Assembly (NCBI GenBank): GCA_036874045.1
Contig: CM072343.1
Location: forward strand, 12,854,001-12,918,000
Length of the DNA stretch: 64,000 bases
Origin: Cymodocea nodosa
Lineage: Eukaryota; Streptophyta; Magnoliopsida; Alismatales; Cymodoceaceae
Direction: 5' to 3'
The position numbers and the translations under genes are program-made. The notes below the pieces were generated by a model. The model was not told the DNA's origin and did not search any database. It saw nothing but the letters and a program-made list of their open reading frames with translations. Below are positions 18,491 through 53,078 of this stretch, one piece after another (the first letter of the stretch is position 1; every line of letters begins with the position of its first letter).

Positions 18491-18566
18491 ATTAATATAA
18501 GCAACTATTAGAGCTGTTTTGTTTTAATAGCTAGAGTGTTGTGTGTTTTCTTCTGTAATTGAGAAT

Positions 18567-20828: not shown

Positions 20829-21376
20829 TAAGAAATCAGTTTTTATGTTGAAAAAAAAAAAAATTAAAAATTTAAAAAATTATAAAATATAAAAATCGTT
20901 GCAGTTCAACCGACCGGATCCATCGGTATGACCGGAACATAAAAATATCTATATTAATTTTCAGAAAAAATATTGGTTTTACCGAAACATAGTATCGGTT
21001 CAATAGGAAAAAAAAATTAGGTCTGACCGAAGCATAGTATCGGTTAAAGTGGTAAAAAAAAAATAGAAAAACTATTATGTTAAGTATTTTTATTATTATA
21101 TCTGTTTGTACAGGAAGTCCGTTGAGCATAACTCAACGAGCTTACTCTGTTGAATCTTGAGTTAGTCAACGAGCTTATTCCAGTTAACTCAACGGAGTAC
21201 TGTAGCTAAGACCACGGATGAGAGAGCAATAGTTGGTTCGGAAAATGACCCGAACCTGCCTAAACTTAGGGCTTATTTTAACTAAAACCTAGGGTTTTGG
21301 GGGCATTATCTGGCAAACCATTTAGAATTTAGAATAGTAGAAATCAGAGCGATTCATGCTATTGTGTAACTCCACG
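20829..21376 (+). promoter_or_regulatory. spacer between pol and env-like ORF with palindromic modules and a splice-acceptor-like site
   Basis: Noncoding, very A/T-rich. 20915-21055 holds three ACCGAARCATAGTATCGGT-type imperfect palindromes. tctgtttgtacag (AG at 21112-21113) resembles a 3' splice site and is followed by GTTGAGCATAACTCAACGAG modules (21120-21205). Similar T-rich CAG sites precede the capsid ORF and the F-box ORF. A spliced mRNA is an inference. Confidence 0.5.
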
Positions 21377-24513: not shown

Positions 24514-24909
24514 ATCTCCCCCTTTTTGATAATGACAAAAACCTTTACAATTATTTACATGTATTTCACTCCCTAGTGTATTACTATACATTCAATCACA
24601 CAAAGAAAAATAAAACAGGAATTTATCAATACTATACTGACGAGAAGGGATTCCTCCGCTTGACTTTGAGCTAAACTTCTCCCCCTATCTGTGTGCTGAG
24701 TTTTTCTTCTCTTTTAATGATTCTCTTTCAGTGCATGCTGGAAATACTGTAAGTGACCAAATTTCCAAATTCTTCTCCCCCTTTTTGTCATTATATAAAA
24801 AGGTGAGGACTGTAAAACTAAGTTTCTGTAAAACTGATATTAACTGTATCCTACACGAGTAGGTTAGTAGAAAAACAAGCTCCCATATGGTGAGCTTGAT
24901 GAAAAATAT
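24514..24909 (-). other. C3 3' untranslated region with polypurine tracts
   Basis: On the minus strand, the terminal tract (complement of atctccccctttttg, 24514-24528) touches the LTR. More tracts are complements of ttctccccctatct (about 24675) and ttctccccctttttg (about 24772). No gene. Confidence 0.8.
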
Positions 24910-27286
24910 TTAAAGATCTTGTAAAGAACATATTCCTAGATTTCATCTAATATTATTAAAAGTTGATTCATTTAAAGGTTTGGTGAAAATATCTGCAAGT
25001 TGATTTTATGTTGGCACAAACTTAAGTGAAATGTTCCCTTTCTCCACATGATCTCTCAGAAAATGATGTCTGATCTCGATATGCTTGGCTCTGGAATGAA
25101 GTACTGTATTCTTAGATAGACTAATTGCACTGCTGTTATCACAAAATATGATTGAATTCTGAATTTTCAGTCTATAATCTACTAGAGTTTGCTACATCCA
25201 AAGGATTTGTGCACAGCACAATCCAGCTGCAATATACTCAGCTTCAGTAGTAGATAAAGCTATACAATTTTGTTTCCTACTAAACCATGAGATTAAAGAA
25301 CATCCAAGTAATTGACAAGTACCACTGGTGCTTTTTCTATCAGATCTGTTGCCTGCATAATCTGCATTACTATAGCCTATTAAAATCAAACTACTATCAG
25401 CTGAGTAGAATAATCCGAAATCTTTTGTTCCTTGTAGATATCTGAAAATCCTTTTGATTGATTTCAAATGTGATTCCTTTGGTGATGCTTGAAATCTAGC
25501 ACACAAGCATACACTGAACATAATATTTGGCCTGCTAGCTGAAAGGTATAACAGGGATCCAATCATACCTCTATATTGCCTTTGATCTACTGCAACACTT
25601 GAATCATCCATTTCCATTTTAATGCTTGAACTCATTGGAGTATTTGCGGATTTGATGTTTTCATAACCAAATTTCTTTAACATCTCTTTCTAGTATTTTT
25701 CTTGGTTGACAAAGATACCATTATGCACTTGATAAATCTGTAATCCCAAGAAAAACTTCAATTCTCCCATCATGCTCATTTCGAATTTATTTTTCATCAA
25801 ATTCTGAAATTCATGACAGAGATCTGCTGAAGTGGCTCCAAAGACTATATCATCAACATATATCTGTACAATCAACATATGCACATCAAAAGTTTTGATA
25901 AACAACGTGCTGTCCACTTTGCCTATAGAAAAATTATTTCCAGTTAAAAACTTTTTCAATTTCTCATACCATGCTTTGGGTGCCTGTTTTAGACCATAAA
26001 GAGCCTTTCTTAGTATGAAGACATGATTCGGCTTGAATTCATCTTCAAATCCAGGAGGTTGTTTGACAAACACTTCTTCCTGAATTTCTCCATTTAAAAA
26101 GGCACTTTTCACATCCATTTGAAACAATCTTATCTTCATACTACTTGCAAAAGCAAGCAACATTCTGATAGCTTCAATTCTGGCTACGGGAGCAAAAGTT
26201 TCTTCATAGTCAATACCTTCCTGCTGATTGTAGCCTTGAGCAACTAATCAAGCTTTATTTTTGAGAATATTACCTTCTTCATCTAATTTGTTTTTGAAAA
26301 TCCATTTAGTTCCAATGATGGATTTTCCTGCAGGTTTTTCTACTAGTTCCCAAACATTGTTTTTCTAAAACTGATTTAATTCTTCTTGCATAGCCATAGT
26401 CCAGTAGGTATCCTTACATGCTTCATCTACTGATTTTGGCTCTATTTCTGACACAAATGCACAAAAATTGCAAATATCTTGTGCTTTGCTCCTAGTTTGT
26501 ACCCCTTTAGATATATTTCCAATAATTTGTTCCTTAGGATGATCAGATCTAAACTTCCAATTGTCAAGATTCTAAAATCTATTGTGTGGATTCTGGTCTG
26601 ACACTTGTGATTTGATTTTCTGCTTGCAGTTATCATCTTCAAAGTATTCATTTTCACTATCATATTTAATCTTCAACTTTTTGAAATTCTAGATCAGATC
26701 TTCATTAAACTGAACATTTATACTTTCCTCCACTCTTCTATCTTTAGCAAAATATACTCTGTAAGCTTTGCTTTTCGAGGAGTAACCAACAAGTATAGCA
26801 GGTTCAGACTTAGCATCAAACTTGTTTTTAGCATTTCCTGTATTTAAGACAAAACATTTGCATCCAAATGTCTTAAAATAGCCAACATTTGGAGTTTTAT
26901 TGAACCAAATTTCAAAGGGTGTCTTATTCAATGTGGGTCTAATGTGAGTTCTATTGGAAATGTGACAAGTTGTTCCTACAGCTTCTGCCTAGAGAAATTT
27001 AGGTAGATCCGTGGCATTTAACATAGTTCTAGCCATTTCTTGTAATGTCCTATTTTTCCTTTCCATAACTCCATTTTGAGCAGGAGTTCTAGGATAAGAG
27101 AATTCATGCAGAATTCCAAATGAATTGCAAAGGTTTTCAAATTCATAGTTTTCAAATTCCCCTCCATGATCACTTCTAATTTTCTTCACTGTTAGTTCCT
27201 TCTGATTCTGAATTCTTATGCAGAAATTCCTAAACTCATTGCAAGTTTCATTCTTATGTGTCAAAAATATTAGCTAAGTTAATCTG
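24910..27286 (-). pseudogene. C3 pol, distal part: integrase core, RT, RNase H
   Basis: Minus strand, from the insertion point at 27286 to TAA at 24910-24912. Integrase: KIRSDHGGEFEN, TPAQNGVMERKNRTLQEM. Linker: NKTPFEIWFNKTPNVGYFK. RT: FQMDVKSAFLNGEIQEE, YGLKQAPKAWYEKL and an intact IYVDDIVFGAT, then MSMMGELKFFLGLQI. RNase [51 protein letters not shown] stop after NQEKY (about 25685) and a few others interrupt an otherwise good frame. Unlike C1, the RT active site is intact. Confidence 0.9.
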
Positions 27287-28915
27287 GAGATATCATTGTT
27301 TGGATTAAAATGTTGCATATTTTTATAGGATCTTATTGGTTAAATATATTTACATGAGATTTATTAAAGTCATATTATGCATTTATTTCATTATTTAACC
27401 AATAAGAACCAATCCCCATTTTATACAGTTAAAAGTAGGAAATTATTTCAAACATGCATCATTTATGAATTTTATGGATGACTTGATATTTTGATGTACT
27501 TATTGTTGTGAAAAGTTTATAATTCAATTGAAGATCATAGAGATTGAAGATTGGAGAAAGAAAATCAAGTGGGATTTAATCCCAATTGTTGAATCAAAGA
27601 TGGATCTCCAAACTTGGAAACTCTCTCTATAAAAGAGAGTGATGCACATCTAGGTCTTCTCTCTTGGAGTTTTTGTTTTCCACCTCCAACACCACCAGCC
27701 GTCACCCTCTCTTGGAGCTCCACGTCTTGAAGCAAGGAAGGAGAACGCCAGTCATTCCACCACATCTCTTCAACTCGGATCTCATCATCTTCATCCCACA
27801 AGTCATCTCCAACGTGAAAGCCTTGATCCCACATCTTGGAGGAGGGACGTCCACCACTACAAGGGTTCTCTTCTTCATTTGTGGGGTTCCACAAATCATT
27901 TCTCCCCTTTCCCCTCTTCTTTGGCTTCAGATGTATCACTTTTTATCATGTTTCACATAGGTAGTTATTTATGTTCTTAGTTTTCATTGTAATAGGGTAA
28001 AAGTAGAAAACAGATTCGTTATTGTTTGTTTGTTCCTTTTTGAATCCGTGAATCTTTGTTCTTTTCATTTGAAAATCATAAAAACAGGTGATGTTATTGA
28101 TATATATTCATATATTGTTGTTTGTTGATGTTGAAATCCGGATATTACATTCTGTTATGCATGAAACAACATAGAATTCGTTGAAGGTTGTGCATGTTGT
28201 TTGCAGATTTGCAGTTTTGTTGATTTGTTTTTATTCCGAGAGTTCATATGCGTTCTGGAGCGATTCTGTTTAACTGAAAATTCTGAAAAAAATCTTAATC
28301 GTGCTATTATAAGTCTTATATGATTATGTAAAATCTCATATCAATCCAAGAAGATTTGTTGCCATTTTGAAGCTATAACTCTATCGAGCACAGAATTCGG
28401 TCTGAGACTCTTTTGTCGTGATTGTAACGTGTTTTTCTAAGAACTCAGATCGTTTAAAAATTCTAATAAATATTTCATTAATATCTACATTCTGTATAGT
28501 TTGCAACGCATCTGATTTTGTAATTTTTGGTTGAATAATTCGGGATTTATAAGGTTTTTAAGATACTGTTGTTAACGCGCAGAAGTTTCCAATTTTATGC
28601 ATCATTTTCAATCCCCGAATTTTCAGTCATACCATTCGTGCGTTTTTAAGTGTGAAAATTTTTATCTGAAGTCCACATTAACAGATCTGATTGAGATTAA
28701 ATTTTTAGTCTAATCTATTGATTGGTCGATAAATTAAAATTCCGTGGACTTACCTTTTTTGTAGTCTAATCTATATTTGGAAAGTATTTGCTTACCATAT
28801 TCTTGTAATTAGAATCATAGATTATCCCCATTTCTCTGTGGTTCAACCCGTACTTGTTGACGTACTTCATTGGATACCGTGTACTTGCAGTTTATAAATT
28901 TAAAACTTCTAAAAT
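27287..28915. mobile_element. 1.6-kb insertion in C3 integrase, unclassified (gypsy-LTR-like)
   Basis: Copia integrase text stops at ATCTG (27282-27286) and resumes after ATCTG (28916-28920), compatible with a 5-bp target duplication. Inside are ctctataaaagagag near 27630 (TATA-like) and, near the right end, cccgtacttgttgacg...gtgtacttgcag, the phrase found at ends of gypsy LTRs. No TG...CA ends are obvious with this duplication. Open frames at 27565-27960 on both strands show no domain. Best guess: an LTR of another gypsy family. Confidence 0.55.
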
Positions 28916-29621
28916 ATCTGAACAATCATCAACAATAACAAAGGTATATTTTCGACCCCCAAGACTTGATACTTGAGAAGGACCAAACAAATCTAGATGT
29001 AGCAGTTCTAATGGCCTTTTGGTGGACACAACATTTTTGCTGTGAAGAGCAGTTCTCTTCTGCTTCCCTAGCATACACTCACTACACACTCTATCCTTCT
29101 TAAAAGTGAGTTTAGGCAGACCCCTAACAAGATCACCTGTGGATAGCTTTCTGATATTCTTCATACTGATGTGACCAAGTCTTCTATACCACACCCAATC
29201 GTCTTCACCAGTTGCTACCAAATAGGAATTGCTTGCAGAATTTTCACATGGAAAGTTTAATGTATATATTGAGCAATTTCTAATACCAGTAAATTTTGTT
29301 TCATTTGTGGCAGGATCAATAATGTAGCAGTTTTTAGCATTAAAAGAAACAGTATAGCCTTTATCACATAATTGTCCTACACTTAACAAATTTTGTTTTA
29401 AACCATTTACATGCAAGACATTCTCAATTATACCATTTTCAGATGTAATATTTCCTATTGCAGTTATTTTACACTTTTCATTATTTTCAAACTTAATAGA
29501 TCTTGAACTTAAGTTTTTAATTAAGTCAAGAAAGCTTTTCTTACCTGTCATGTGCTTTGAGCATCCACTGTCCACAATCCATTTAGTTGAACGTGCTTGA
29601 AACTCCTTGTCACCCTACAAA
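28916..29621 (-). pseudogene. C3 pol, proximal part: protease and N-terminal integrase
   Basis: Minus strand. Protease DSGCSKHMTGKKSFLD, FENNEKCKITAIGN, NVLHVNGLKQNLLSVGQLC. Integrase WYRRLGH (first His changed to Tyr), LVRGLPKLTFKKDRVCSECMLGKQKRT, LLHLDLFGPSQVSSLGGRKY, VIVDD, then the insertion. Follows a TGA at 29622-29624 that ends gag. Confidence 0.9.
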
Positions 29622-31164
29622 TCATACTGAAATTAAAGTTTTTGGTACCCAAATCTTCTTGGGTCCAGTAGAGTTAGTGCTTAAAACATTAAATCTATTG
29701 CCTCTTGGCAGCCACATATGACCTGATCTTCGTTTGATGGCAAACATAGTGGTGCTATCTCTATAAGATCGAATCACTCCACCACAATAAGGTATTTCCT
29801 GTGGTGTAGCATACCCTAGGCCATATTTATTCCCATTTGATCGTTGAGATCCTATTATTTTATTTAATCCTTTTTGTCCTTGAGTAAATTTACATATAGT
29901 ATCTTTCAGATCTGATATAGTAGTTAATAGATTTTTATTTTCATCTTTTAATTCACAATTATCACAACTATACTTATCTAAATTTGATTTTAGATTTCTA
30001 TTTTCAACTATAGTTGATTCTAATTCAGCAAATGAATTTTCTAAGCAATGATTTAATCTTTTAATTTCTTTCTTAAAATCTCTACACTTAACATATAAAT
30101 TATCTACTGTAGATAGAAGACTGTTTATGTCTAAATCATCATGCTCATTTTCTGAACTAGAGGAAGTGGAGCATACCTCTTGTGCTGCAAAACAAACATT
30201 GGCTGCAACTTCTTCTTCAGAATCTAATGAACAGCTTGAAGAGCTACTGTCATCCCACGTAGATTTGAGAGCCATCTTCTTTTTGTCCTTCAATCTCTTC
30301 TTCTTATCTCCTTGATCATCTTCTGTCTGAAATGGACAGAAGGTTTGTATGTGCCCTTGCCTTTTACATTTGAAACATGTAGGGACCGTTGTTTTAGAAG
30401 AGCTGGACTTATTCTTTTTCTTCATAAACTTTCTGAAGTTCCTTGCCAACAACATGATCTCATCATCGTCTGAGCTTAGAGCTTCCTCTATAGATGGAAA
30501 TGCCATTTCCTTTTTCTTTTCAGCTTTCTTTTCAACAACTCCTTCTTGCTCTTTCCAGTCCTTCATCTGAGTTTCGTGGGCCAGAAGATTGCCCAACAGT
30601 TCTTCAACTGTGTAATTGTTGAGATCCTTGAATAGATGTGGACTTCTGTTTCCATTCAACAGTTAAGCTCCTCAGGATCTTCTGTACCTATTCACGTGAA
30701 GAGAACTCCTTTCCCAAGCCTTTCAGACTGTTAATGATTTCAGTAAATCTAGAAAACATTTCAGTTATGTTTTCATTATCATTCATTTTAAATAGTTCTA
30801 GTTTTCTCAAAAGAATACTGATTTTTGTATCCTTGACTTGGCTTTTACCTTCATGAGTAACTTGAAGGATTTTCCAAGCCTCATGAGCAGACTTACATGT
30901 AGATACCTTATTATATTGATCAACATTTAGTGCACAATAAATGGTATTCAGACCTCTAGCATCCAACTGGATGATTTTCTCATCCTCCTCAGACCAGTTC
31001 GTCACATCACTGGTTGGAAGTGCAGTTCCAAGAACAACAGTCTTCCAGAGTTTAACATCTAAACTCCTAAGGAATCACTCCATTCTATTCTTCCAATAGT
31101 TATAATTGGAACCATTGAATAGAGGAGGTCTGTGGATGTTTTGTCCCTCAGCAAATTGAGCCAT
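29622..31164 (-). pseudogene. C3 gag (copia A), nearly open
   Basis: ATG on the minus strand at 31164. First part: NIHRPPLFNGSNYNYWKNRM, TNWSEEDEKIIQLDARGLN, AHEAWKILQVTHEG, EMFSRFTEIINSLKGLGKEFSSRE, then the TAG shared with C1 and C2. The second part is open for ~345 codons: NNYTVEELLGNLLAHETQM, a Glu/Lys stretch, zinc knuckle CFKCKRQGHIQTFC (CX2CX4HX4C), Lys-rich region, Ser/Asp tract, predicted coiled coil (NSLLSTVDNLYVKCRDFKKE...), a GLGYATPQE block and MWLPRGNRFNVL. It ends at TGA 29622-29624. Binds and packages RNA by analogy with other Gag proteins. Confidence 0.9.
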
Positions 31165-31201
31165 AAATCTAGATGGTTAAATCTTATGAAGGATTAACCT
31201 C

Positions 31202-31213
31202 GCTCTGATACCA
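31202..31213 (-). other. C3 primer binding site, initiator Met tRNA
   Basis: GCTCTGATACCA on the plus strand, i.e. TGGTATCAGAGC on the minus strand, two bases from the LTR end. Confidence 0.95.
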
Positions 31214-31215
31214 AT

Positions 31216-33010
31216 TGTTAGGATCGATAGGCTCACTAAAGGGGGGGTGAATGGTGAAAGTGTGTAGTTTTAAAAATCTTTTGATGTTGAATCGAATGAT
31301 TCAACAGAAATGTAATGAGATGAAACTAAGAGAATGCAAATCAGCAGAGATAAGAAACACACAGCAAATTTTTTAGGTGGTTCACCAATTTGGCTAGTCC
31401 ACTCCCAAGATTCACTCGGGCTTCACTAAGTGTTTCAACACTTACACACTTGCTTTCAGGTCAAAGCAAGAACCAACTACACAAAAGTTTTCTGGTTAAA
31501 ACTTCAGTAAACCAACCTCTAGAGTTTTCAGGTTGAAACTCAAACCAACACTGTATGTAGCTTTCAGGTTGAAGCCACGAACCAACAACTTTAATCCTTC
31601 AAATAGAGTTTTGGCGCACAGAGTTTTTTTTTTTCTATAGTAGATCTTCTGAATATTCTTCGTTGTTTGCAGACTTGAGTGTAAATGAAATTTTGAGTGT
31701 AGCTCTTTTTGTCTCCGTTGTCTGTATTTTGTATATATACATGATATGTACAACAATCATATTTTCCTCCAACGGATGTATTCTACTGTACTTGATTAGC
31801 CTCAAGTCCTAATACGGCAAGTGACCGTTTAGAAAATCGTTTCAAGATATCTTACCGATTTTCCTGTTCTTTCGGATAGTTAGCTATGCAACTCTCCAAA
31901 GAGTATTTGTAACTCACCGAAAGATCACTTAACCTTTACTGCCAGGTAAGATTCTAGAATATTTAAATGTGAGCTGTCATCCAATCGGATACTTATAACT
32001 ATAACTCACCAAACAGTTATATACTTGTTGGATAGTTTGTCTTTGTCAACTTTCTGATTGCTTTAATTTAGCACGTGCATAAAGGGCTGACTTATGTTTC
32101 GGAAGGTTATCCCTGTAACTCATCGAAATGCTTCAGGATTTCGGATAGTTATTTTTCTAACTCTCCGAAAACTTATTTGAGCCACTCTCTAGAATTCTGC
32201 ACGTGGTAAATTCAATGACTTAAGTTTCGGATAGTTAAACTGTAACTCACTGAAATTCTTTTGAAATTTCACATAGTTATCTTTCTAACTCTTCGAAAAC
32301 CCATTTGAGCATCTGTCTGGAATTCTGCACATGTGAAATTCACTAACTTAAGTTTTGGATAGTTAAACTGTAACTTACCGAAACTCTCTTTGAAATTTCA
32401 GATAGTTATCTAACTCTTCGATTTTCCCTTTTAAGCTTTCAACTGCCGGCTTCTCTATTTTGCACGTGCGTAATAAAATGACTTAAGTTCCGGAAAGTTA
32501 TGCCTGTAACTTACCGAAAAACTCGAATAGTTATCTAACTCTCTGAAAAGAAAACTCGGATAGTTATCTAACCCTCCGACAAGTCCTTTAAGCTTCCGTT
32601 CTGTATTTCTACACGTGGTTTATTGAATGACTTAACTTTTGGATAGTTATACCTGTAACTCTCCAAAAAGTCCTTTAAGCTTCTGGATAGTTAACTCCTT
32701 AATTATTCGATCATTCAATATCCTTAACTGTTTGATTAAATAACTCTCCGAAGGCTTTGTAAAATTTGGATAGTTATCCTTCTAACTATCTGATAGTCTT
32801 GCTGCTTTTTACTCTTCGGATACTTGAATCTGTAACTGTCCGATTTTGCTGTATCTTGAAAGCATTATCATTTGGAACCTTCTCGATCTGTTCATCTACT
32901 TGGAAATTGTTCTAATAGCCTTTTGAACTAATGCAGTACAGACTTAACTATGAAATACAATATGTTTCCTCACATAGGTTTTGCATTATCAAAATACTCG
33001 GGTTCTAACA
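31216..33010 (-). mobile_element. C3 5' LTR
   Basis: Partner of 22722-24513, with the same ends and the same module spacing: G-boxes at 32072, 32200, 32328 (CACATG variant), 32463 and 32612. Most differences between the two LTRs are C/T or G/A changes. Confidence 0.9.
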
Positions 33011-33892
33011 TAAACCCCTCTAGAACAACAAAGTCACATTCCTAACCCGATTGAAACAACAGTTTTGAATGAAGTACATTTTTAGAGTCAAGAAGCTTAT
33101 ACTAAATATCAAGAGATTAAGGGTTATGATATTATTTACAGTAGACCAGTAAATTGGGATGGAATGCAAGAAATCAAAGAATTATTTGAATTCCAAGGTC
33201 TACTGAATTTTATTTCTCAAGAAAGATGGCATGCAGTATATGAAAATCTAGTGCCCTGTTTTTATGCAAATTTGAGAGAGGAAGAAGAAAAATTAATTTC
33301 CAATGTGGAGGAAGCTGATGTATAGATAACACCAGAGCTTCTCCACAACATTTTTGGATTAAAGAATGAAGGGCAGGAAATTTTGGAAAGTACAACTACC
33401 GTGGAATGGACAGAATAGGAAATCAAGGATAGTTTAGCTATCAATCCTGGTGTGCCTTTATTAAACAAACTGAAGCATTTAAATGGTAAAGCACACATAG
33501 TAGCCAACATTTTGATTAAGAATGTTTATCAACGACAAGGCCATGACATAGAATTAAGTCAATTTGTCAAATGGGCCATGTTTGCAGTTGTAAATAGAAT
33601 TCCAATAAATTGGACTGTAGTTTTTATCTCTAAGTTGAGAACAGTAAAGAAGAAATTGTTTTATCGAGATTTGATTCCACTACTGATGGTGGATTGTATT
33701 GATTTCACGAAATGGGCATCAAAAAGGATCAGATCAAAAACCATTTCAGTGAAAGAATAGAGAAATTTTGTAGTTGCAGAGATAACTGTACCTTCTAGAG
33801 GAATAACAAGAGCTGTAGAGAGAATTAATCAATTAGAGCTACAATTAGAAAAACTCCAAAAGGAAGTAGATGAACTTAGGAATAGAGACTAA
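33011..33892 (+). pseudogene. gypsy G1 env-like ORF, C-terminal half
   Basis: Frame 2 to TAA at 33890-33892, stops at about 33084, 33322 and 33416. Landmarks are LFEFQGLLNF, YENLVPCFYANL, LLHNIFGLKNEG, LKHLNGKAHIVANI, FAVVNRIPINW, KKKLFYRDLIPLLM and a C-terminal Leu-heptad segment (INQLELQLEKLQKEVDELRN), likely a coiled coil. Homologous to the copia B ORF at 1-1605 and to the G4 copy at 50726-53766. Resembles the plant transposon protein domain; molecular role unknown. Confidence 0.75.
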
Positions 33893-34843
33893 ATTGTATT
33901 GTTCGTCTACTTGTATAGAATTCTATGAAAATTCTATGATGTACTTGTAATATAAATCGATTCATATCAATAAATATAAATTTTTCAGATGTACTTTTCA
34001 TACGTGTTCTAAATGTGAAATGAATGGAATTTATTGAATGTTATATAATTTGTGGAACATTATGCATGAATGTTTAAAAAGATTTACAATTTACTGAATG
34101 ACAGGATAGATGTTTGAAAATTTCTACATGTTGCAAGGTAAAATGTAAATTCTGCATAACATAAAATGACCTGCAAGTTAAATATTTATATAATGTTTAG
34201 ATTTAAATGAATTTTGAGTAGAATGATGCATTAATGACATATATTTAACTATATTTCAGTTAGCAGAATGAAAAAAAGAAAGAAAGTAGAGAGGTACTTA
34301 CGAGGAGTAAACTTAGAAGTTGCTAAGTGTTAACTCAACGAAGTAAGTTTGTTGAGTTAAGCTTAACTCCACGAGGTCAGTAATTTAATATAAGGTCACT
34401 CTGTTGAGTTATCTGTAACTCAACAAAGTTAGTTCGTGGAGTTAGCAACAGTAACTAACAGTGTTCCGTTGAGTTATCTGTAACTCAACGAGGTTAGTTC
34501 GTGGATTAAGCAGAACGGTTATTCTTTTAGCCACAAATGAAACTTCGTCAGCTTAGTGGTTACCAAAATTTGAAATTAATAGTGGTACACGTACCAATAA
34601 AAACAGGAACCACAATGTACGTTGTAAGACACATTCTTGCAACGAGATTTATTCACTTTATGGATGTGCATTATATATATAAAATAGAATGTTATTTACG
34701 AGTTACCAGCACTTTTAAAAGTAAGAAGGAAAGCGTTGAGGGAACTGTAAGGAGAAGCAGCTGATTCGACTTCGTCTGTTAACAAATATTTACTGAATGA
34801 AAAGCTTCAAACTAGTATGTAATTAATCTTCTGTTATTTATTT
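33893..34843 (+). promoter_or_regulatory. spacer between env-like and capsid ORFs with palindromic modules
   Basis: No ORF. A T-rich stretch ending tatttcag (AG 34258-34259) resembles a splice acceptor. 34325-34515 has four to five GTTGAGTTATCTGTAACTCAACG-like imperfect palindromes alternating with gttagttcgtgga. No LTR or PBS is visible, so if the capsid ORF downstream began a separate element, its 5' LTR has vanished. Confidence 0.5.
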
Positions 34844-36185
34844 ATGAGCACATGGACTCGTTCTCTAAGCACTAAACGATTAGTAAGAACACCTACCCAG
34901 GAATATTCAACATAGAGGAGTACTGAAACATTTTCTGAACTAGACTTTAATGAAATTCTTTGGGGTGTAGCTAACCTTTCTTTAAAAGAGAACGTAGAGA
35001 TGACTACTCTAGTAGAAAAACCATTAGGAGAAATTCTGTATCCTGAATTAGTTGATGAACCTTCATGTATTCGATTGCCAAACTTTGAGGGGATAGGTTT
35101 GAACTGAAATCTAATTATATTAGTCAATTGCCACATTTTCATGGATTAGAAAGAGAGGATGCCTACTATTTCCTTAGAGAATTTAATGAAGTTTGTCAAA
35201 TGATGAAAATGCCGAACATGAGTATAGATGCTATTAAACTTAGATATATCCTTTTTGCTTTAAAAGACACAGCTAAGAGATGGTTATATACTCTGTCGCT
35301 TGATTCAATTTCTACATGGACTGAATTTTGCTCTATTTTTTTGGAAAAATATTATCCAACAATCAAATGATTAAAAAGAAAAAAGAAATATTAATGTGTA
35401 GCCAAAAACATGGTGAATTATTCTAGAAATATTTTGAAAGATTTAAAGATTTATTGACTTAATGTCTGCATCATGCAATGAGTAAAGCACAATTAATAAG
35501 TATAATTTATGAAGGCATAAATGTTTCAACGAAATCTTTATTAGAATCTACTTGTCAAAATGAATTTCTAAAACTTTGTAGTGAAGAAGCATAGACATAT
35601 TTAGAAAACTTTGCAAAAAGAACTACATAGTGGGAAAACTCGATTGAAGCTATTGTAGATAAAAGAATATTGCCAAGAGGAATGTATGAAATAGATTCAA
35701 GTACTATGCTTGAAGTGAAATTAATTGAATTGACAAAGAAAATAGAAGAGTTATCATTAAATCAAAAACTAGTAGAAAAGAATGCAAACATAAATGATTT
35801 AGATATTATTTATGCTAGAAACCAGAAAGATAACTTTTGAAATTCTTATAATCCTAATTGGAGAAATCACCTGAATTTATCTTGGAGAAACAACAATTTC
35901 CAGGGAGGAGAAAATGTAAATGAGAAGAATATAAGTTATGAAGCATTACTGGAAGAAGGATCTAGAATAGAGAAATTAGAAAAGATAATCCAACAATTAA
36001 ACAATCGTCTAGATTTTGTATTTGGAAATGTTGCAATTCAAAATCAAAATAGAAATATACCACTTAGATAGAAGGAATCAATGGAAGTTAGACCTATTGG
36101 AGGATTGCCAATACAAGCAATACCTAACTCTGTCAATAAAATTGTTAATGAAATTGATACCTCTTCTGGGAGGGTAGCTAAATGA
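34844..36185 (+). pseudogene. gypsy capsid-type gag (copy 1), broken
   Basis: ATG 34844 (MSTWTRSLSTKRLVRTPTQE). Retrotransposon gag domain: IRLPNFEG, LPHFHGLEREDAYYFLREF, MSIDAIKLRYI, FALKDTAKRWLYTLSLDSIS, TWTEFCSIFLEKYYP, then YFERFKDLL and the C-terminal WRNNNF segment typical of Athila gag. A 1-bp deletion near 35090 and another near 35363 shift the frame, and several TAG/TGA stops are present. No zinc knuckle: the usual knuckle position holds NINDLDIIYARNQKDN. It ends with TGA 36183-36185 and is followed by the F-box ORF instead of protease/RT. Copy 2 is at 41359. Confidence 0.85.
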
Positions 36186-36372
36186 AGCAGCATATCTGAA
36201 GCAATTATCTGTATATATATATATTTATTTATAGTTAATAGTATCGTAGAGTTAGTCCTTAACTCAATGATCTTAGTCTGTTGAGTTATGCCCTAATTCC
36301 ATGAGGGTTTGCAGTAGTTATGTTAATTTTTGTCTCTACTAAATTTTTGTTTGTGTTATACAGAATCGACAA
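36186..36372 (+). promoter_or_regulatory. spacer between gag and F-box with a splice-acceptor-like site
   Basis: Contains GTTGAGTTATGCCCTAATTCCATGAGG-like module text (36275-36305) and a T-rich tract ending gtttgtgttatacag (AG 36362-36363) ten bases before the F-box ATG. The same site is at 42736-42737 in copy 2. Confidence 0.5.
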
Positions 36373-37506
36373 ATGGAATTGATGCAATTACCATTGGATG
36401 CACTAAGGGAAATATTAAGTAACTTGTCAGCTAAAGATCTGTGTAGGCTATATTGTGTATCAAAGGAAATTAAAGACTGTATTAAAGAAAAATATTTTCA
36501 AGGACTATAAGCTACAAAAATGACTAAGATTAGAGATGGATTCATATGGAAGTCATTTAATCGTAGTTCAATTACCCATGAATATCTGAATATGGAAGAA
36601 ACTACTAGAATTCCACCTAATACATTAGAAAGAATAGATCATATTATGGGGATAGATGGACTAATCATATACAAGACCAGACCAAGGTATGCAAGTCTAT
36701 TACCTAATATTTTTATAAGAAATCCTATAACAAGATAATAATGGAATATAGGAAGACCTAATAGATATGAAGTACCAACTGTAAATTGTGAGTCGGCTTT
36801 AATATTTTTTGATAAAAATTCTACAATTCCTGAAAAATTATATTATTGGAGACCTATAGGAAATTGTAGTGAAGATTTACGCTTAAGTGTGTATAATTTT
36901 CTGAATAGATATTGGACTGAAAATATTATGATATATCTAGGACATAAATCATTAATTAACAACATGCATGTCATACTTGATGGATATGTATATCTAGTCA
37001 CAGATATATCAATAGCATTTGGATCTGATTTATACATAGTGAGCATAGACTGTTATGATGAATATATAGAAATTTTACCTATATCGAGAGAAATAGCTAA
37101 ACCACCATCTGTAGAATTTGATAAAATTCAAATAGGATTGTGGTATAATGAATATGATGATCCTACTTTATGTCTGATAAGATGGTGGGATGAATTGATG
37201 AAATTTCAAATATGGATTATGAAAGACATAAATGAATGGAAGTGGGAAGTGGAGTATAATGAAATAGATGTAGAAATAGAAACTTCTACATTATCCTGGA
37301 ATCGAAAAGGATCCCTTTCTGCATTTCATATCATTAATAGTAATACACTTGTATTTGGAATTTATAATATATTACACGTTTACAAATTAAGAAAGAACAA
37401 GAACTACATTAAAACAGAATTAATAGCAAGAAGAACTATGCTTAAAAAGTTTGCTTGGACTGACACGTTTATTCCATTTGTTTCTACTTTTCAATCATGT
37501 TCTTAA
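36373..37506 (+). pseudogene. F-box / F-box-associated-domain gene carried by the gypsy element (copy 1)
   Basis: One frame of 377 codons. N-terminal F-box (residues ~3-45): LPLDALREILSNLSAKDLCRL then CVSKEIKDCI. The F-box-associated half includes NPITR (~118), WRP, SVYNFLNRYW, LDGYVYLVTDISIAFGSDLY, LCLIRWWDELMKFQIWIMKD and LVFGIYNILHVYKL. Known F-box proteins link substrates to SCF ubiquitin ligases through SKP1; that role is inferred. It has no introns and stops at codon 46 (CAA in copy 2) and codons 122-123 (GAA GAA in copy 2). Otherwise full length. It sits between gag and the polypurine tract of a gypsy element, so it is a transduced host-type gene, not a host locus. Confidence 0.85.
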
Positions 37507-39327
37507 GCTGTGATTTTGTGTGTTTAATGTTGTGAGTATTCTGCATTTATTTTTTTGAAAAAAAAATAAATTTAGTTTTCATTTTTATTTTATTTTATGA
37601 AAAAAACAAAAACAAAATATCAATCCAGTTTGTTGGTATCTATTCTAGGAAACCAACTGGCTTGCTTGTGAGCCACCAGAGGCATATGAACCTGGGTTCC
37701 ACACAAGACACTAATTTATCAATATCTGTTAAATGTTATTTTGTTTTATATTCTGCTTTTATCTGTGAATGAAAAGTTTTTCAGAATAAAAAATCGGAAT
37801 ATGCAAAAGGAGATACAAACGAAACAAGATATGTAACTAATTACTTATCCTGAATTTAGATTTAAACTCATTTGTTGAGTTAGGTGCTAAATCAACGAAA
37901 TTGTATTCATGCCTACTATAATTACTGTATTTATTGTCAAATCTTCTACATTGAGGACAATGCAAAATGTAGGTATGGGGGGGAGGTAATTAAAGTAACA
38001 TCCATGTAAGTTTGTTAATTAAAGGAATTAAAATGGTATTGCAAAGTTTTGTGGAAATTGAAAATTTTTATGAACTTGCTGTAACTATCCGATAATTGAG
38101 ACTGTAAAATTTTATAAACTGTAATTTCTTGAATGTTGTATTTAGAAGTCTATATAAGATACTATAGAATTTACTATTTATGTAAATCTAGATATAGTAT
38201 CTTATGTTTTTTCTGAATTTCATGAGTTTAACAGTTTCACGATTTTAAAATGAAATTAGAATGCTTAATAAAAGAAAAAACATTATCTGAAGTCCTGAAG
38301 GAGCTAAAATATGAATTCTAGATTAAATGAAACACATATGATTAAAGATACATTTAATTTAACTGATTAAACATGTAGAATGATTTATGTGTAGATCTTA
38401 TTAAACTACATAAAAAGTATGAGCTTATTGTTATGGATTCATATTTTCAGTAAATAATAGAAGCAGGACTATATGAGATTGGTGTTTTATTGCATCTATA
38501 TTAATGAAATACGTACATATACAGTATGTGATTAATGTTTTGTCTTGTTTTTGTATTTTGAAAGAAAAAAAAGAAGAAAGAAAAAAAAGAAAAAAAAAAC
38601 TTTGAGAGTTTATTAACTTGTTTGATCACGAGCCTTTTGTACTTGAGCAGATAGGTATGTAAGGATTGTTGACCTGAAAAAGGACTCTTGAAATCTGGCA
38701 ACCTAAGATCCTGATTAGATTTGGGATTGTTGACTGAAAGCTCGTTACATGGGTACATTAGAAAGCTCCTTTATGATTTAAGCTTGTCAAATTAACTTTA
38801 AAAAAAAAAAAAAAAACACATATACTATTCTGAAAAGATACAAGTGTTTTGCAAAATACATATATCTTATGAATCGAGTATATTTTCTTTTATCTAGAAT
38901 TGCTAAAATATGAATCTAGAATTGACTTTTGGAGTTGTTTAATGGAGATACAATTCTTTATTCTACTTGTCTTAATCATATTGAATTGGATTGTACTTTG
39001 ATTCGTATGTTGTTGAAATTTCTTCTAGAAATCTTATTGGAAAATTCAGGATGACAGATGATGAAAAGAAGAACAAACGATAATATAATTAACACCTATG
39101 TGATGATGATATACTTTGTATGTAATTTGCATATATTCTAAGTATATTTGCAGGTTGAAGAGGAGAAAACAATATTACTGAAACATACAGAATATCTAAA
39201 TAATAATACTAGTTCTTATGCTGAACAAAAAAAAAAGGGGGAAGAATTAGTTCTAGCACTTTTAGAAAGACCCATTAATGAGATCTTAGTTTGCTAAGGG
39301 ACTAGCAAAATTTAGGTATAGGGGAAG
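37507..39327 (+). other. gypsy E 3' noncoding region with internal G-tract and terminal polypurine tract
   Basis: 1.8 kb without a gene. An internal polypurine-like block (attgaggacaatgc ... tatggggggga, about 37950-37985) resembles plant gypsy 3' ends. A-rich stretches occur at 38560-38600 and 38800-38815. The terminal tract tttaggtataggggaag (39311-39327) directly precedes the LTR. The segment 38160-38650 is also found at 6427-6890 (minus). Copy 2 is at 43680-45496. Confidence 0.7.
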
Positions 39328-41310
39328 TGTTTAGAATGAAAAAGTTCATATTATTAACGGTTAAATGATGGTTAATTGCATAATATTTAGCTTATCATAT
39401 GAGAATTAAGCCATTATGTTATAATTGCATTATTATAAGCTTTAATTAAAGAATCTACTTAATTTTGGGGAATTAATGTTAATTTAGTACATTTCTGAAC
39501 TATCGGTAAGTTGCAGGTTGTGAAATTCTTAAGTATCCGAATTTTCTGATATTTTGGATAGTTATGTTTAAACTACCGAACAGTTATGTTTTAAAAGAAT
39601 AGTTTATTATTTCCTGAAGTACACGTGTCGAAAGCATAACGCATGACTTAAATGAACTTTCGGTGAGTTATCTATAACTGTCTGAAATTGCAGCTGAGCA
39701 TCAGATAGTTAGACCTGTAACTCTCCAAAATGTTTCTTTTATTATTAAACTACTGCTGACACGTGTCAAGATTTGGTAGATTTACTTAAGTTATATATCG
39801 GTGAGTTATCTGTAAGTATCCGAAATGCATTTGAGAATCGGATAGTTAAGTTGTAAGTATCCGAAATGCACTTGAGCATCGGATAGTTAAAGTTATGCAC
39901 ATGTTTTATAGTTAAATCAACGAAGAAAGTTTGTTGAGTTATCTGTAACTCCACAGACTATTTATTTTCTAATATGCCACTGTAGCGGTTATAGAAACAG
40001 GACAGTTGGACAGAAAAACCACGATTGCACGTATTGTGTAGGGAGAAGAAATCATCGTTGTTGATATGAATGAAGGAAATCCAACTAACCATTCAAGCAA
40101 AAGAAGTTACCACTAAAGAAATATAAAAGAAAAGAAGAAAAAGAAGTAAAGGGTGTGTGATCGATGGGTATGGCCAGTGTGTACAAAGGAGGAGCACCAA
40201 GCTTTCTACAGATAGTATTGGCAATTCTCTGAAGTACAACACCAACCATCATTACCACCACCATAACCACTATAATCACCAACCATCGGAGGTCTGTGAG
40301 AATACTTTCCTGATGTTGGGTCGATTTCAAGCCAAACACAGTGCCTGACAACCACTGTGAGGAGTGATCGTGTCGTGGGAAGGGAAGCCATTTTCACCAA
40401 GCACCAACTCATATTTCAAGAGATCATAAAGCTTCTAGCCTTGGTTTCGGGTTGATGCCTGTATGCTGAAGAGAAGATCATCTTGCAATTCTGGACTCGC
40501 GATTCTATAGGGAGAGGAGATAGAATTGTAAGTGGTTTAATTTTTAGTGGTGTAATCACGTTGCATGTAGTGATGGAAGTATTTACTATCGATTGAGATT
40601 ACTTTACATTTCACCTTTCGCCCATTTCCATGTTCATATTAAAACAAAAATACCAAATACAATTTATCTGTGTTTGTATTTTGTATTTGAGTGTTGTATT
40701 GTTTGTGTTGTATCGTGATTAATGTTATCTTTCTTAGTGTTGTGATTGTTTTATGTTTGTTTTAGTTTTACAGTTTACTGAAATTGGTTCGTTCAAAAGA
40801 CTTAAAGATTTTAATGGTTACTGTTTGAATTATCTGAATGTTAGTATTGCTTAATGATAAATCCAGTGTTTACTAACATTAAAGAGCTTAATTGATGTTA
40901 TTTACAATCTGTGGAACCACCCAATGGTTGGCCGAATTCCTCTATAAATAGTAGTATTAAAAAGAAAAGACGGGCTCGTGGAGTTAACGTAAGTCCACGA
41001 GGTTAGTCCGTTGAGTTAGCCATAACTCAACAAACTTTGTCTGTTGAGTTAACTGTAATTCAATTGAGGGCTTATTGAAGATATTAATTTGATTTTTAAC
41101 AAACGGAACAGTTCTCAATTCTTAAGCAATTCTTTGTGGGATCGACCTGTACTTGCATACTAATACAATAAACACCGTGCACATGCAGTTAAAATACAAA
41201 TTGGAATTAATATCTAACTTGTATTAAAGGTTGTTTGTTTACTTCTATATAAAAAAAAGAATAGGCATAAAGATAAATTAACTAAGTAAAAACAGAAGTT
41301 AACAAATCCA
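39328..41310 (+). mobile_element. gypsy E LTR, complete, shared between two tandem bodies (about 1.98 kb)
   Basis: TGTTTAGAATG start after a polypurine tract; ends about aaatcca before agttttttc and the PBS. U3 has G-boxes at 39622 and 39760 and CACATG at 39896 (spacing ~137) with TCGGATAGTTA...TAAGTATCCGA arms like copia A, then GTTGAGTTATCTGTAACTCCAC like the gypsy spacers (39925-39955). TATA-like atataaaag near 40122 and ctataaatag near 40943. Further GTTGAGTTA modules at 40975-41065. The region gatcgacctgtacttgc...gtgcacatgcag lies near the end. Confidence 0.85.
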
Positions 41311-41319
41311 AGTTTTTTC

Positions 41320-41336
41320 TGGTGCGTTGCTGGAGA
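41320..41336 (+). other. gypsy E2 primer binding site, Asp tRNA type
   Basis: TGGTGCGTTGCTGGAGA: the Asp tRNA complement with one missing base and a few substitutions. Confidence 0.7.
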
Positions 41337-41358
41337 TCCAAACAAGTTTTCTGCTATC

Positions 41359-42561
41359 GTGCTAGGTAAACAAATAGCTGCTCTAGTAGAAAAACCATTA
41401 GGAGAAATTCTGTATCCTGAATTAGTTGATGAACCTTCATGTATTCGATTACCAAACTTTGAGGGAGAGAGGTTTGAACTAAAATCTAATTATATTAGTC
41501 AATTGCCACATTTTCATGGATTAGAAAGAGAGGATGCCTACTATTTCCTTAGAGAATTTAATGAAGTTTGTCAAATGATGAAAATGTCGAACATGAGTAT
41601 AGATGCTATTAAACTTAGATATATCCCTTTTGCTTTAAAAGACACAACTAAGAGATAGTTATATATTCTATCGCCTGATTCAATTTCTGCATGGACTAAA
41701 TTTTGCTCTATTTTTCTAGAAAAATATTATCCAACACATCAAACGATTAAAAAGAAAAAAGAAATATTAATGTATAGCCAAAAACAGGGTGAATCATTCT
41801 AGAAATATTTTGAAAGATTTAAAGATTTACTGACTCAATGTCCACATCATGCAATGAGTAAAACACAATTAATAGGTATAATTTATGAAGGCATAGATGT
41901 TTCAACAAAATCTTTATTAGAATCTACTTGTCAAAATGGATTTCTGAAACTATGTAGTGAAGAAGCATGAGCATATTTAGAAAACTTTGCAAAAAGAACT
42001 GCATAGTGGGAAAACTCGGCTGAAGCTATTTCAGATAAAAGAATATTGCCAAGAGGATTGCATGAAATGGATTCAAGCACTATGCTTGAAGTGAAATTAA
42101 CTGAATTAACAAAGAAAATAGAAGAGTTATCATTAAATCAAAAGCTAGCAGAAAAGAATGCAAACATTAATGATTTAGATATTATTTATACTAGAAACCA
42201 AAAAGATAACTTTGGAAATTCTTATAATCCTAATTGGAGAAATCACCAGAATTTATCTTGGAGAAACAATAATTTCTAGGGAGGAGAAAATATAAATGAG
42301 AAGAATATAAGTTATGAAGTATTACTGGAAGAAGGATCTAGAATAGAGAAATTAGAAAAGATAATCCAACAATTAAACAATCGTCTAGATTTTGTATTTG
42401 GAAATGTTGCAATTCAAAATCAAAATAGAAATATACCACTTAGATAGAAGGAATCAATGGAAGTTAGACCTATTGGAGGATTGCCAATACAAGCAATACC
42501 TAACCCTGTCAATAGAACTGTTAATGAAATTGATACCTCTTCTGGGAGGATAGCTGAATGA
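41359..42561 (+). pseudogene. gypsy capsid-type gag (copy 2), N-terminally truncated and broken
   Basis: Leader text after the PBS is fused directly to the LVEKPLGEILYPEL part of gag; the first ~58 residues of copy 1 are missing and no ATG is present. The capsid domain matches copy 1 (LPNFEG, LPHFHGLEREDAYYFLREF, FALKDTTKR). A TAG follows at about 41656, with more stops after it. The C-terminal NSYNPNWRNHQNLSWRNNN block is open from about 42046 to 42279. TGA at 42559-42561. No zinc knuckle, no protease/RT/integrase. Confidence 0.85.
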
Positions 42562-42746
42562 AGCAGTATAACTGAAGCAACTATCTGTATATATATGTTT
42601 ATTTATAGTTAATAGTATCATAGAGTTAGTCTTTAACTCAATGAACTTACTCTGTTGAGTTATGCCCTAATTCCATGAGGGTGTGCAGTAGTTATGTTAA
42701 TGTTTGTCTCTGCTAAATTTTTGTTTGTGTTATACAGAATTAACAA
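42562..42746 (+). promoter_or_regulatory. gag to F-box spacer, copy 2
   Basis: Same as 36186-36372: GTTGAGTTATGCCCTAATTCC module and a T-rich stretch ending gtgttatacag (AG 42736-42737) ten bases before the F-box ATG. Confidence 0.5.
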
Positions 42747-43679
42747 ATGGAATTGATGCAATTACCATTGGATGCACTAAGGGAAATACTGAGTAACTTG
42801 TCAACTAAAGATCTGTGCAGGCTGTGTTGTGTATCAAAGGATATTAAAGACTGTGTTGGAGAAAAATATTTTCAAGGACTACAAGCTGCAAAAATGACTA
42901 AGATTAGAGATGAATTCATATGGAAGTCATTTAATGGTAGTTCAATTACCCATGAATATCTGAATATGAAAGAAACTACTAGAATTCTACCTAATACATT
43001 AGAAGGAATAGATCATATTATGGGGATGGATGAAAGATTAATCATATATAGGACTAGACCAAGGTATGCAAGTCTATTACCCGATATTTTGATAAGAAAT
43101 CCTATAACAAGAGAAGAATGGAATATAGGAGGACCTAATAGATATGAAGTACCAATTGTAAATTGTGGGTCGGCTTTAATATTTTCTAATAAAAATTCTA
43201 CAATTCTTGAAAAATTATATTATTGGAGACCTACAAGAAATTGGGATGAAGATTTATGCTTAAGTGTGTATAATTTTCTGAATAGATCTTGGACTGAAAA
43301 ATTCAAATAGGAATGTGGTATAATGAATATGATGATCTTACTTTATGTCTGATAAGATGGTGGGATGAATTGATGAAATTTCAAATATGGATTATGAAAG
43401 ACAAATGAATGGAAGTGGGAAGAGGAATATATTGAAATAGATGTAGAAATAGAAACTGCTACATTATCTTGGAACCGAAAAGGATCCCTTTCTGCATTTC
43501 ATTTCATTAATGGTAATAAACTTGTATTTGGAATTTATAATATATTACACGTTTACAAATTAAGAAGGAACAAGAACTGCATTAAAATAGAATTAATAGC
43601 AAGAAGAATTATGCCTAAAAAGTTTGCTTAGACTGACACGTTTATTCTATTTGTTTCTACTTTTCAGTCATGTTCTTAA
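42747..43679 (+). pseudogene. F-box gene carried by the gypsy element (copy 2), internal deletion
   Basis: ATG 42747. Open for 187 codons, covering an intact F-box (LPLDALREILSNLSTKDLCRL, CVSKDIKDCV) and the first third of the F-box-associated domain, including the EE pair that is stops in copy 1. About 202 bp (equivalent of 36924-37125) is deleted at an AAAAT/ATTCA microhomology, which shifts the frame. The remaining C-terminal text (WWDELMKFQIWIMKD, GIYNILHVYKL) continues out of frame to TAA at 43677-43679. Identity to copy 1 is high by eye, about nine in ten positions. Confidence 0.85.
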
Positions 43680-45496
43680 GCTGTGATTTTGTGTGTTTAA
43701 TGTTGTATGTATTCTGCATTTATTTTTAGAAAAAACAGAAAAAAACAAAAAAAAAATGTAGTTTTCATTTTATTTTATAAAAGAAAAAAAAAAAATATCA
43801 ATCCAATTTGTTGGTATCTATTTTGGGAAACCAACTAACTTGCTTGTGAGCCACGAAAGGCATAGGAGCCTGGGTTCCATATAAGACACTAATTTATCAA
43901 TATCTGTTAAATGTTATTTTGTTATATATTCTACTTTTATCTGTGAATGAAAAATTTTTCAGAATGAAAAATCGGAATATGCAGAAGGAGATACAAACGA
44001 AACAAGGTATGTAACTTATTACTTATCTTGAATTTAGATTTAAACTCATTTATTGAGTTAGGTGCTAAATCAATGAAACTGTATTCATGCCTGCTACAAT
44101 TACTATATTTTTTCAAATCTTTTACATTGAGGACAATGCAAAATGTAGGTATGGGGGGGAGGTAATTAAAGTAACAGCCATGTAAGTTTGTTAACTAAAG
44201 GAATTAAAATGGTACTACAAAGTTTTGTGGTAAGTGAAAATTTTTATGAACTTGCTTTAACTATCTGATAATTGAGACTATAAATTTTTATAAACTGTAA
44301 CTGCTTGAATGTTGTATTTAGAAGGCTATATAAGATGTTATAGAATTTATTATTTATGCAAATCTAGATATAGTATCTTATGTTTTTTCTGAATTTCATG
44401 AGTTTAACAGTTTCATGATTTCAAAATGAAATTAGAAGGCTTAATGAAAAAAAAAAAATTTATCTGTAGTCCTAAAGGAGCTGAGATGTGAATTCTGTAT
44501 TAAATGAAACACATATGATTGAAGATACATTTAATTTAACTGATTAAACTTGTAGAATGATTTATGTGCAGATCTTATTAAACTACAGAAAAGTATGAGC
44601 TTATTGTTATGAATTCATATTTTAAGTAAATGATAGAAGCAAAACTATATGAGATTGGTGATTACTACATCTGTATTAACGAAATATGTACATATATAGT
44701 ATGTGATTAATGTTTTGTTTTGTTTTTGTGTTTGTAAAAAAAAAAGAAAAAAAAAAGAGAAAAAAAACTTGAGAGTTTATTGACTTGTTTGATCATGAGC
44801 CTTTTGTACTTGAGTAGATAGGTATGTAAGGATTGTTGACTTGAAAAAGGACTCTTGAAATTTGGCAACCAAAGATCTTGATCAGATATGGGATTGTTGA
44901 TTGAAAGCTCATTACATGGGTACATTAGAAAGCTCTTGTATGATTCAAGCTTGTCAAATTAACTTTTAAAGTACAAAAAAAATACATATACTGTTTTGAA
45001 AAGATACAAGTGTTTTGTGAAATACAGATATCTTATGAATCAAGTATATTTTCTGTTATCTAGAATTGCTGAATTATGAATCTAGAATTGACTTTTGAAG
45101 TTGTTTAATGGAGATACAATTCTTTATTGTACTTGTCTTAATCATATTGAATTGGATTGTACTTTGATTTGTATGTTGTTGAAATTTCTTCTAGAAATCT
45201 TATTGGAAAATTTAGGATGACACATGATGAAAAGAAGAACAAACGATAATATAATTAACACCTATGTGATGATGATATACTTTGTATGTAATTTGCATAT
45301 ATTCTAAGTATATTTGTAGGTTGAAGAGGAGAAAACAATATTACTGAAACATACAGAATATCTATATAATAATACTAGTTCTTATGCTAAATAGAGAAAA
45401 AAAAAGGGGGAAGAATTAGTTCTAGCACTTTTAGAAAGACCCATTAATGAGATCTTAGTTTGCTAAGGGATTCGCAAAATTTAGGTATGGGGGAAG
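43680..45496 (+). other. gypsy E2 3' noncoding region and polypurine tract
   Basis: Copy of 37507-39327, including the internal G-tract (about 44151-44160), A-rich runs and the terminal tract tttaggtatgggggaag (45480-45496). No gene. Confidence 0.75.
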
Positions 45497-45861
45497 TGTT
45501 TAGAATGAAAAAGTGCATATTATTAACGGTTAAATGATGGTTAATTGCATAATATTTAGCTTATCATATGAGAATTAAACCATTATGTTATAATTGCACT
45601 ATTATAAGTTTTAATTAAAGAATTTGCTTAATTTTGGAGAATTAATGTTAATTTAGTACATTTTTGAACTATCGGTAAGTTGCAGGCTGTGAAATTCTTA
45701 AGTATCTGAATTTTCTGATATTTCGGACAGTTATGTTTAACATACCGAACATGTATCGGATAGTTATGTTTAAATTGTCGAACAGTTATGCTTTAAAAGA
45801 ATATTTTATTATTTCCTGAAGTACACGTGTCGAAACCATAATGCATGACTTAAGTGAACTA
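45497..45861 (+). mobile_element. gypsy E LTR, 5' fragment (third LTR of the tandem)
   Basis: TGTTTAGAATG start; follows 39328-39670 with TCGGACAGTTATG repeats (45720-45790) and a G-box near 45823, then breaks inside gacttaagtgaact into the end of the C1 LTR through a short actagc/ctagc overlap. Confidence 0.8.
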
Positions 45862-53073: not shown

Positions 53074-53078
53074 ATGAT

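Follow-up and report, generated by a model that had tools for sequence, protein, structure and literature searches.

What is a gene for an F-box protein doing inside a long terminal repeat (LTR) retrotransposon of a plant? The question is raised by a 64,000-nucleotide stretch of the Cymodocea nodosa genome (GenBank assembly GCA_036874045.1, contig CM072343.1, positions 12,854,001 to 12,918,000; hereafter “the window”), which carries two copies of an F-box open reading frame (ORF), each following a gag gene for a retroelement capsid. In the reading favoured here, to which we assign a probability of about 0.77, a high-copy family of Athila-like Ty3 elements carries the F-box gene as a standing accessory gene, placed in a 3' module that also holds what is, among the copies read, the only recognised capsid gene.

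The observation of an F-box ORF inside an LTR element is confirmed. Copy 1 spans 36373..37506 and copy 2 spans 42747..43679, both on the plus strand, and a second reading upheld these positions as well as the lesions first described. Copy 1 is a single frame apart from stops at codons 46, 122 and 123, and copy 2 is free of stops at these positions, has lost 202 bp (the offset between the copies drops from 6377 to 6175) and is broken in frame after about codon 187. The F-box itself is clear: against a PF00646 cut-off of 20.5 bits, copy 2 scores 42.4 bits (E=5e-11) and a further copy, L035, 42.7 bits. Open frames of 378-379 codons are found in other family copies and thus fit the intact parental ORF postulated in the original prediction. 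Other parts of that prediction had to be revised. The supposed F-box-associated half is reached by the Pfam family FBA_1 only weakly in the family copies (E=0.07, under the cut-off), and the two ORFs lie in two neighbouring elements instead of twice inside one. Both copies are indeed located 3' of a capsid gag and 5' of a polypurine tract and LTR, but the tract was misplaced: a G-run near 37975 is found about 1.3 kb upstream of the LTR, and the tracts directly before the LTR starts are at 39310..39327 (element 1) and 45479..45496 (element 2), both on the plus strand.

The F-box ORF is amplified throughout the 374.6 Mb of the genome that was searched. A 20-mer of the ORF has 2437 exact matches (1235 + 1202), compared to 0 for the reversed control, and therefore chance is excluded. 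Since the same 20-mer is present in 33 of 39 sampled copies, the family comprises an estimated 2,900 or so F-box copies, a figure derived from a sample that leans towards copies resembling those of the window. A search with DNA of the C-terminal half had 2812 first-look candidates. Each of the 40 that were scored spans 407/407 bases, and 39 of them (without the window's own copy) are 96-97% identical. The F-box half, used as a protein query, yielded 5414 first-look candidates, the best 150 of which were scored and all match, most of them over residues 1-185. The copies read share the gag - F-box - LTR context, which strongly supports amplification together with the element; the gene has thousands of copies, and those read do not occur as host genes outside LTR elements but in an element context.

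The linkage is also seen from the other end of the element. Among ten loci picked by their 5' end only, in each of which 3.5 kb of sequence was read some 10 kb further downstream, six contain the F-box gene at this distance (L059, L063, L064, L065, L067 and L068). Five of these are clean, and in L059 the F-box sits behind an LTR end and possibly belongs to a separate neighbouring element. A seventh locus, L066, shows an upstream region of the element at about 10 kb, termed env-like below, and the F-box further on; the remaining three carry integrase (L060), LTR pieces (L062) or nothing (L061) at this position. In the divergent copies L070, L072 and L071 (91, 87 and 78% DNA identity) the end of the 3'-placed gag gene, here termed gag2, is still found directly upstream of the F-box, and hence the pairing is held down to 65% protein identity (L071).

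The architecture of the family is best seen in a complete unit (L044+L042) of 15,067 bp, bounded by two LTRs (2219 and 2243 bp) with an identity of 92.8% over 2241 columns, and flanked by CTAAT on both sides; the LTR pair and target duplication were checked on this one copy. A stretch resembling a primer-binding site (PBS) starts 7 nt past the 5' LTR, and a polypurine tract precedes the 3' LTR. Allowing up to 4 substitutions, the PBS-like stretch is present in 12 of 12 loci examined at the 5' end and in the window, where we take it to be of the tRNA-Asp type in element 1. The sequence TGGTGCGTTGCTGG near 41320 was rejected as a PBS because of its position within the LTR, the PBS-like stretch being found past the LTR end. 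Several copies together give the order LTR, PBS, CCHC nucleocapsid, protease, reverse transcriptase (RT), RNase H, integrase, env-like region, capsid gag, F-box, polypurine tract and LTR. This order is a map drawn from several copies, because the RT is deleted in L044+L042 and seen in L045; the RT is likewise deleted in element 1 of the window, with different joints. L045, located upstream of the F-box copy L039, matches RVT_1 (E=3e-21) and RNase H (E=5e-29) and has an integrase-like frame downstream, and L044 matches RNase H and integrase (Pfam rve). RT and RNase H thus precede integrase, which is the Ty3/gypsy order. The protease match is weak (E=1.4e-4, just under the Pfam cut-off), and the env-like region is coding-like, its scanned pieces being without a Pfam match above cut-off. 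Ten of eleven further 5'-end loci (L047-L057, the exception being L054) run into the pol ORF that carries the RT in L045. By its gag and PBS resemblance the element presumably belongs to the Athila lineage.

The gag of this family looks split, a feature that the original prediction had not noticed, because the 5' ORF is devoid of a capsid and the 3' gag has a capsid without a zinc knuckle. In all 12 of the loci L046-L057 (L046 is the L044 copy), and also in the window, the start of the PBS-like stretch and the ATG of the 5' ORF are 94 nt apart. The ORF bears a CCHC knuckle, CEFCNSEGHDISDC in L044, which is altered in the window copy. The stretch from leader to nucleocapsid returned 4349 first-look candidates; 38 of the 40 scored align from the first 7 bases to the end, and the other two from base 31. 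A capsid domain (Retrotrans_gag) was detected neither in the pieces of the L044 5' ORF nor in the 5' ORF of L058 (311 residues), and the family lacks the capsid-bearing gag with which the gag-pol of Athila begins. The capsid is encoded directly before the F-box: the gag2 frame of L028 matches Retrotrans_gag (PF03732) with E=1.3e-17, and gag2 aligns over its full length with the gag proteins P0001 and P0002 (30-33%), with a gap where these have their knuckle. The knuckle pattern is absent from gag2 in the four loci scanned (L028, L042, L043 and L065). Since the knuckle is found only 5' and the capsid only 3', the two ORFs are complementary. Judged by these features, gag2 looks like the displaced capsid gene of the family, and we infer that it may supply the working capsid.

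Between subfamilies, codon comparisons show purifying selection on the F-box gene, with ratios of non-synonymous to synonymous change (dN/dS, omega) of 0.30-0.49 and 0.52-1.55 in the other frames. Compared to L059 (85-87% DNA identity) the F-box has an omega of 0.49 (0.35-0.69), versus 1.03 in the +1 and 1.55 in the +2 frame. In this one comparison the substitution pattern likewise shows purifying selection on the capsid gene, gag2 having an omega of 0.48 (0.33-0.72) versus 1.00 and 1.14 in the +1 and +2 frames. Compared to L071 (78% DNA, 65% protein identity), nine partners yield F-box dN/dS values of 0.30-0.41, versus 0.52-0.65 and 0.88-1.25 in the other frames; these are plain Nei-Gojobori values uncorrected for transition bias. 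Differences fall on the three codon positions as, e.g., 80/56/107, and L071 itself holds seven stops. Due to shared ancestry the fifteen pairs compared are not independent.

Within the main subfamily, a set of 39 copies was evaluated against a neutral expectation taken from the downstream non-coding stretch (non-coding omega 0.85-1.04). The F-box has an omega of 0.62 and 0.31 of the expected stops, and its other frames reach 0.82 and 1.13. As 30 of the 39 copies stem from a protein-ranked list favouring conserved first halves, it is of note that the second half, which lies outside that ranking query, has an omega of 0.67. F-box variants common to at least 4 copies favour third positions (53/129, p=0.04; transversions 18/28, p=0.0008), and singleton variants do not (100/300). 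For a set of 12 copies, selected through DNA or the 5' end, omega is 0.71 for the F-box (other frames 0.91 and 1.12) and 0.63 for gag2 (other frames 0.79 and 1.18). In the dN/dS comparison proposed in the original prediction, the F-box frame falls below the other frames between subfamilies, and its signal is modest among close copies.

The protein itself is recognisable by its F-box. PF00646 is reached at E<=1 in 10 of 11 family members, the eleventh being a C-terminal piece, and the core residues P7, L8, L15, L18, L23, C28, V29 and S30 are at least 90% conserved in the family alignment A2. The C-terminal half matches no family above cut-off. Searching the PDB by sequence gave no useful match, and alignment A2 retrieved from it only the F-box of FBXO4 (E=1.4). 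With the first half as query, no homologue outside the family was found among 23 candidates, a search whose length limit shuts out full-length relatives. In the genome, the best 150 of 4219 first-look candidates for PF00646 were scored; three of the four loci read are element copies, and the fourth (L069, 260-1615, minus strand) holds a host F-box gene not related to that of the element: its 452 codons include a kelch match, and outside the F-box domain it has no similarity to the element protein. The genome search with PF07734 remained without matches and provides no evidence, because 14 controls likewise gave none.

Several results weigh against the favoured reading, and four alternative explanations were considered. 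The F-box might be a passive passenger, i.e., a host gene that a master element acquired on a single occasion and has propagated since, with no benefit to itself. Stops interrupt the frame in 31 of the 39 sampled copies, only 8 being free of them, the selection signal among close copies of the main subfamily is modest, and two of the fifteen pairs (L064-L065, 0.75; L070-L035, 0.57) show no excess over other frames. Such a passenger is nevertheless improbable in view of the dN/dS of 0.30-0.49 between subfamilies, the deficit of stops and the gag - F-box pairing kept to 65% protein identity. Doubts of the same kind concern the capsid gene, which might be a captured, functionless extra in an element that borrows capsids from other Athila elements. 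Across the 39 copies the omega of gag2 (0.81) is no lower than that of its own +1 frame (0.74; the other frame 1.06), gag2 stops amount to 0.58 of expectation, and only 2 of the copies are without in-frame stops. Its shared variants show no third-position excess (38/112, p=0.48), although its shared transversions do (6/9, p=0.04), and gag2 is without a zinc knuckle. This alternative appears unlikely, as the 5' ORF starts at its constant 94 nt from the PBS and is capsid-free in L044 and L058, knuckle and capsid complement each other, and gag2 is constrained in the comparison with L059. Two further results weigh against the favoured reading: in L071 the F-box is only slightly better kept (30/42 identical) than the stretch that follows it (49/74), and no single copy read has every part of the element.

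The origin of the F-box gene is a separate matter. Capture from the host is plausible, but no host donor gene was found in the genome, where element copies swamp the search, and no homologue outside the family emerged among 4693 candidates at E<=10 when a seven-member alignment was used. The database of 5.8 billion proteins did yield seven gag relatives, three of them with a Retrotrans_gag domain. AlphaFold models of the F-box protein are too poor for a comparison of folds (pLDDT 38.6 and 36.7), and its likeness to the polerovirus F-box protein P0 is one of analogy, not homology. Alternatively, the gene may have come from an old element lineage, or from another element or a virus, rather than from a recent host gene. 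This origin is a real possibility, yet we consider it somewhat doubtful: the missing homologues and the unassigned C-terminal half speak for it, whereas F-box domains are usual in host proteins, plants have F-box genes in very large numbers, and the genome search could not separate host genes from element copies. The many F-box matches in the genome might also reflect an array of host F-box genes invaded by LTR elements. This idea can be practically dismissed, since the F-box resides inside LTR-bounded units, in fixed order and with the same flanks on many contigs, and an LTR-bounded copy with target duplication refutes it.

The favoured reading of a standing accessory gene suggests that the element steers the protein-destruction machinery of its host. 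In a possible mechanism, capsid and F-box protein would be translated from 3' transcripts that are either spliced or separate. The F-box ATG of copy 1 is preceded by a pyrimidine tract with a terminal ACAG (36344..36363, plus strand), which is like a splice acceptor in resemblance only; the sequence TTTTTGTTTGTGTTATACAG precedes the ATG, and its AG is retained in 27 of the 36 copies holding the stretch. Via its F-box, the protein would join the host SKP1-CUL1-F-box (SCF) ubiquitin ligase, and the C-terminal half would recruit a target whose loss helps the element to amplify. By analogy with the reported action of P0 on AGO proteins, the likeliest class of target would be the host silencing machinery, followed by a factor, of the element or of the host, that is involved in capsid turnover. 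Taken together, split gag and F-box would allow separate messages to set the ratio of capsid to polymerase, and the F-box protein to direct SCF against a silencing factor or to regulate the capsid, a proposal that is tentative and, as a whole, rather unlikely to be right in all its parts. The family makes it possible to test how retrotransposons interfere with protein turnover or silencing in their hosts, and the displaced capsid gene constitutes a second, independent departure from the textbook gag-pol order.

In the window, element 1 begins far upstream of its F-box, with pol remnants from 18.4 kb, and the following features are on the plus strand unless stated otherwise. The PBS-like stretch (TGGCACC..., 18473..18495) was located by the pattern given above, with the same spacing as in L046-L057, and precedes the remnant of the 5' ORF (18567..19201), which comprises nucleocapsid and linker without capsid and whose CCHC is intact in L044. 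An RNase H/integrase remnant with deleted RT (19164..20830, end approximate) matches Integrase_H2C2 (E=8e-12) and, just under the cut-off, rve (E=4e-7), and is colinear with L044. The first part of the region that is env-like by position (21010..22721) is likewise colinear with L044 and lacks a Pfam match at cut-off. A Copia element is inserted on the minus strand (22722..33010), as indicated by a 93% repeat pair (22716-24513 / 31210-33010), flanks of CAAAC and TAAAC and an L044/L042 alignment that continues across the insert. The second env-like part (33012..34800), whose ORF fragment lacks a Pfam match, is colinear with L039, L042 and L043. It is followed by the decayed gag2 (34844..36185), a 3'-placed capsid gag without CCHC, as identified through the PF03732 match of L028 and the P0001/P0002 alignment. 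The 3' LTR (TGTTTAG..., 39328..41376) is joined at its end to the gag2 of element 2.

Element 2 starts directly after this LTR with a 5'-truncated gag2 (41377..42561) and ends in a partial 3' LTR start (45497..45860). The common LTR start occurs at 14255, 39328, 45497, 53073(-) and 57568(-); LTR ends and target duplication were defined from L044/L042. The view that the two elements form a tandem with a common LTR was dropped, as the joint of LTR and gag2 recurs at three gag2 positions: an LTR terminus is joined inside gag2 at window 41370-41380, in L041 at ~2790 and in L059 at ~2770. Such joints fit either recombination or nested insertion events in gag2. Before the LTR start at 14255, no target duplication was found that would match the window joint.

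Further rearrangements and repeats were noticed. Short motifs of the type GTTGAGTTA / TAACTCAAC, recognised by eye, recur at three places of the window, namely inside the LTR (40970-41070), upstream of gag2 (34300-34500) and in the interval from gag2 to the F-box (36230-36310), and could form hairpins. In L040 (~5575-5601, reversed locus) the 1.3 kb between two G-rich tract motifs (window 37981-39299) are missing, as if the two motifs had recombined. At window 50846-53788, a stretch resembling 33012-33915 surrounds a minus-strand LTR (~51.1-53.07 kb), which is probably a solo LTR inserted in another family copy. A diverged subfamily at 60571-62842 (LTR 79%, leader/nucleocapsid about 86% like the main family) has the same capsid-less 5' start.

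How does the family compare to known systems? Athila and Calypso are plant Ty3 elements with long LTRs, a TGGCGCC-type PBS and an env-like third ORF. The family described here shares with them the long LTRs, the type of PBS, the order RT-RNase H-integrase, an extra region between pol and the 3' LTR, and a gag2 that is 30-33% identical to the gag proteins P0001 and P0002. It differs in that the capsid is encoded near the 3' LTR, not in the 5' ORF, and the F-box gene comes next.

An F-box-bearing LTR element family, or an Athila element of this kind, was not found in the open-access literature as represented by titles, abstract starts and passages. According to the available passages of PMC7264820, additional ORFs in plant LTR elements are mostly env-like or antisense ORFs of unknown role; transduced ORFs occur in one or few copies and other additional ORFs in most copies. 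An extra ORF between pol and the 3' LTR in many copies is a feature shared with the present family, yet an F-box is not among the ORFs described, the term being absent from these passages (PMC7264820). It is also absent from the passages of PMC11963269, PMC13317346 and PMC5408684, and in those of PMC13359793 it concerns self-incompatibility genes. Cellular-type coding sequences inside LTR elements are known from maize Bs1 and other gene-capturing elements (from the part of PMC13317346 available), and in Thlaspi arvense one LTR-gene named in the accessible text, TaChr6G576, is an F-box-family coding sequence in an LTR element (PMC8764390). In contrast to Bs1 and the Thlaspi gene, as far as these partial sources describe them, the F-box gene is present here as a whole, in thousands of copies and under purifying selection as part of the element. 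A gene for an E3-ligase adaptor would thus be kept in a family of thousands, whereas captured genes, by the same passages, are found in few copies (PMC7264820). Plant viruses provide the closest functional parallel: polerovirus P0 and nanovirus Clink are F-box proteins with a reported action on AGO proteins and RB, respectively, in the text available (PMC3588083). Like the element protein, they are parasite-encoded F-box proteins able to redirect SCF ligases (PMC3588083, same passages), but they are encoded by viruses and no sequence relation to the element protein was found. If the tentative proposal of separate messages and SCF use is true, an element with split gag and F-box would represent a retrotransposon counterpart of the viral F-box suppressors.

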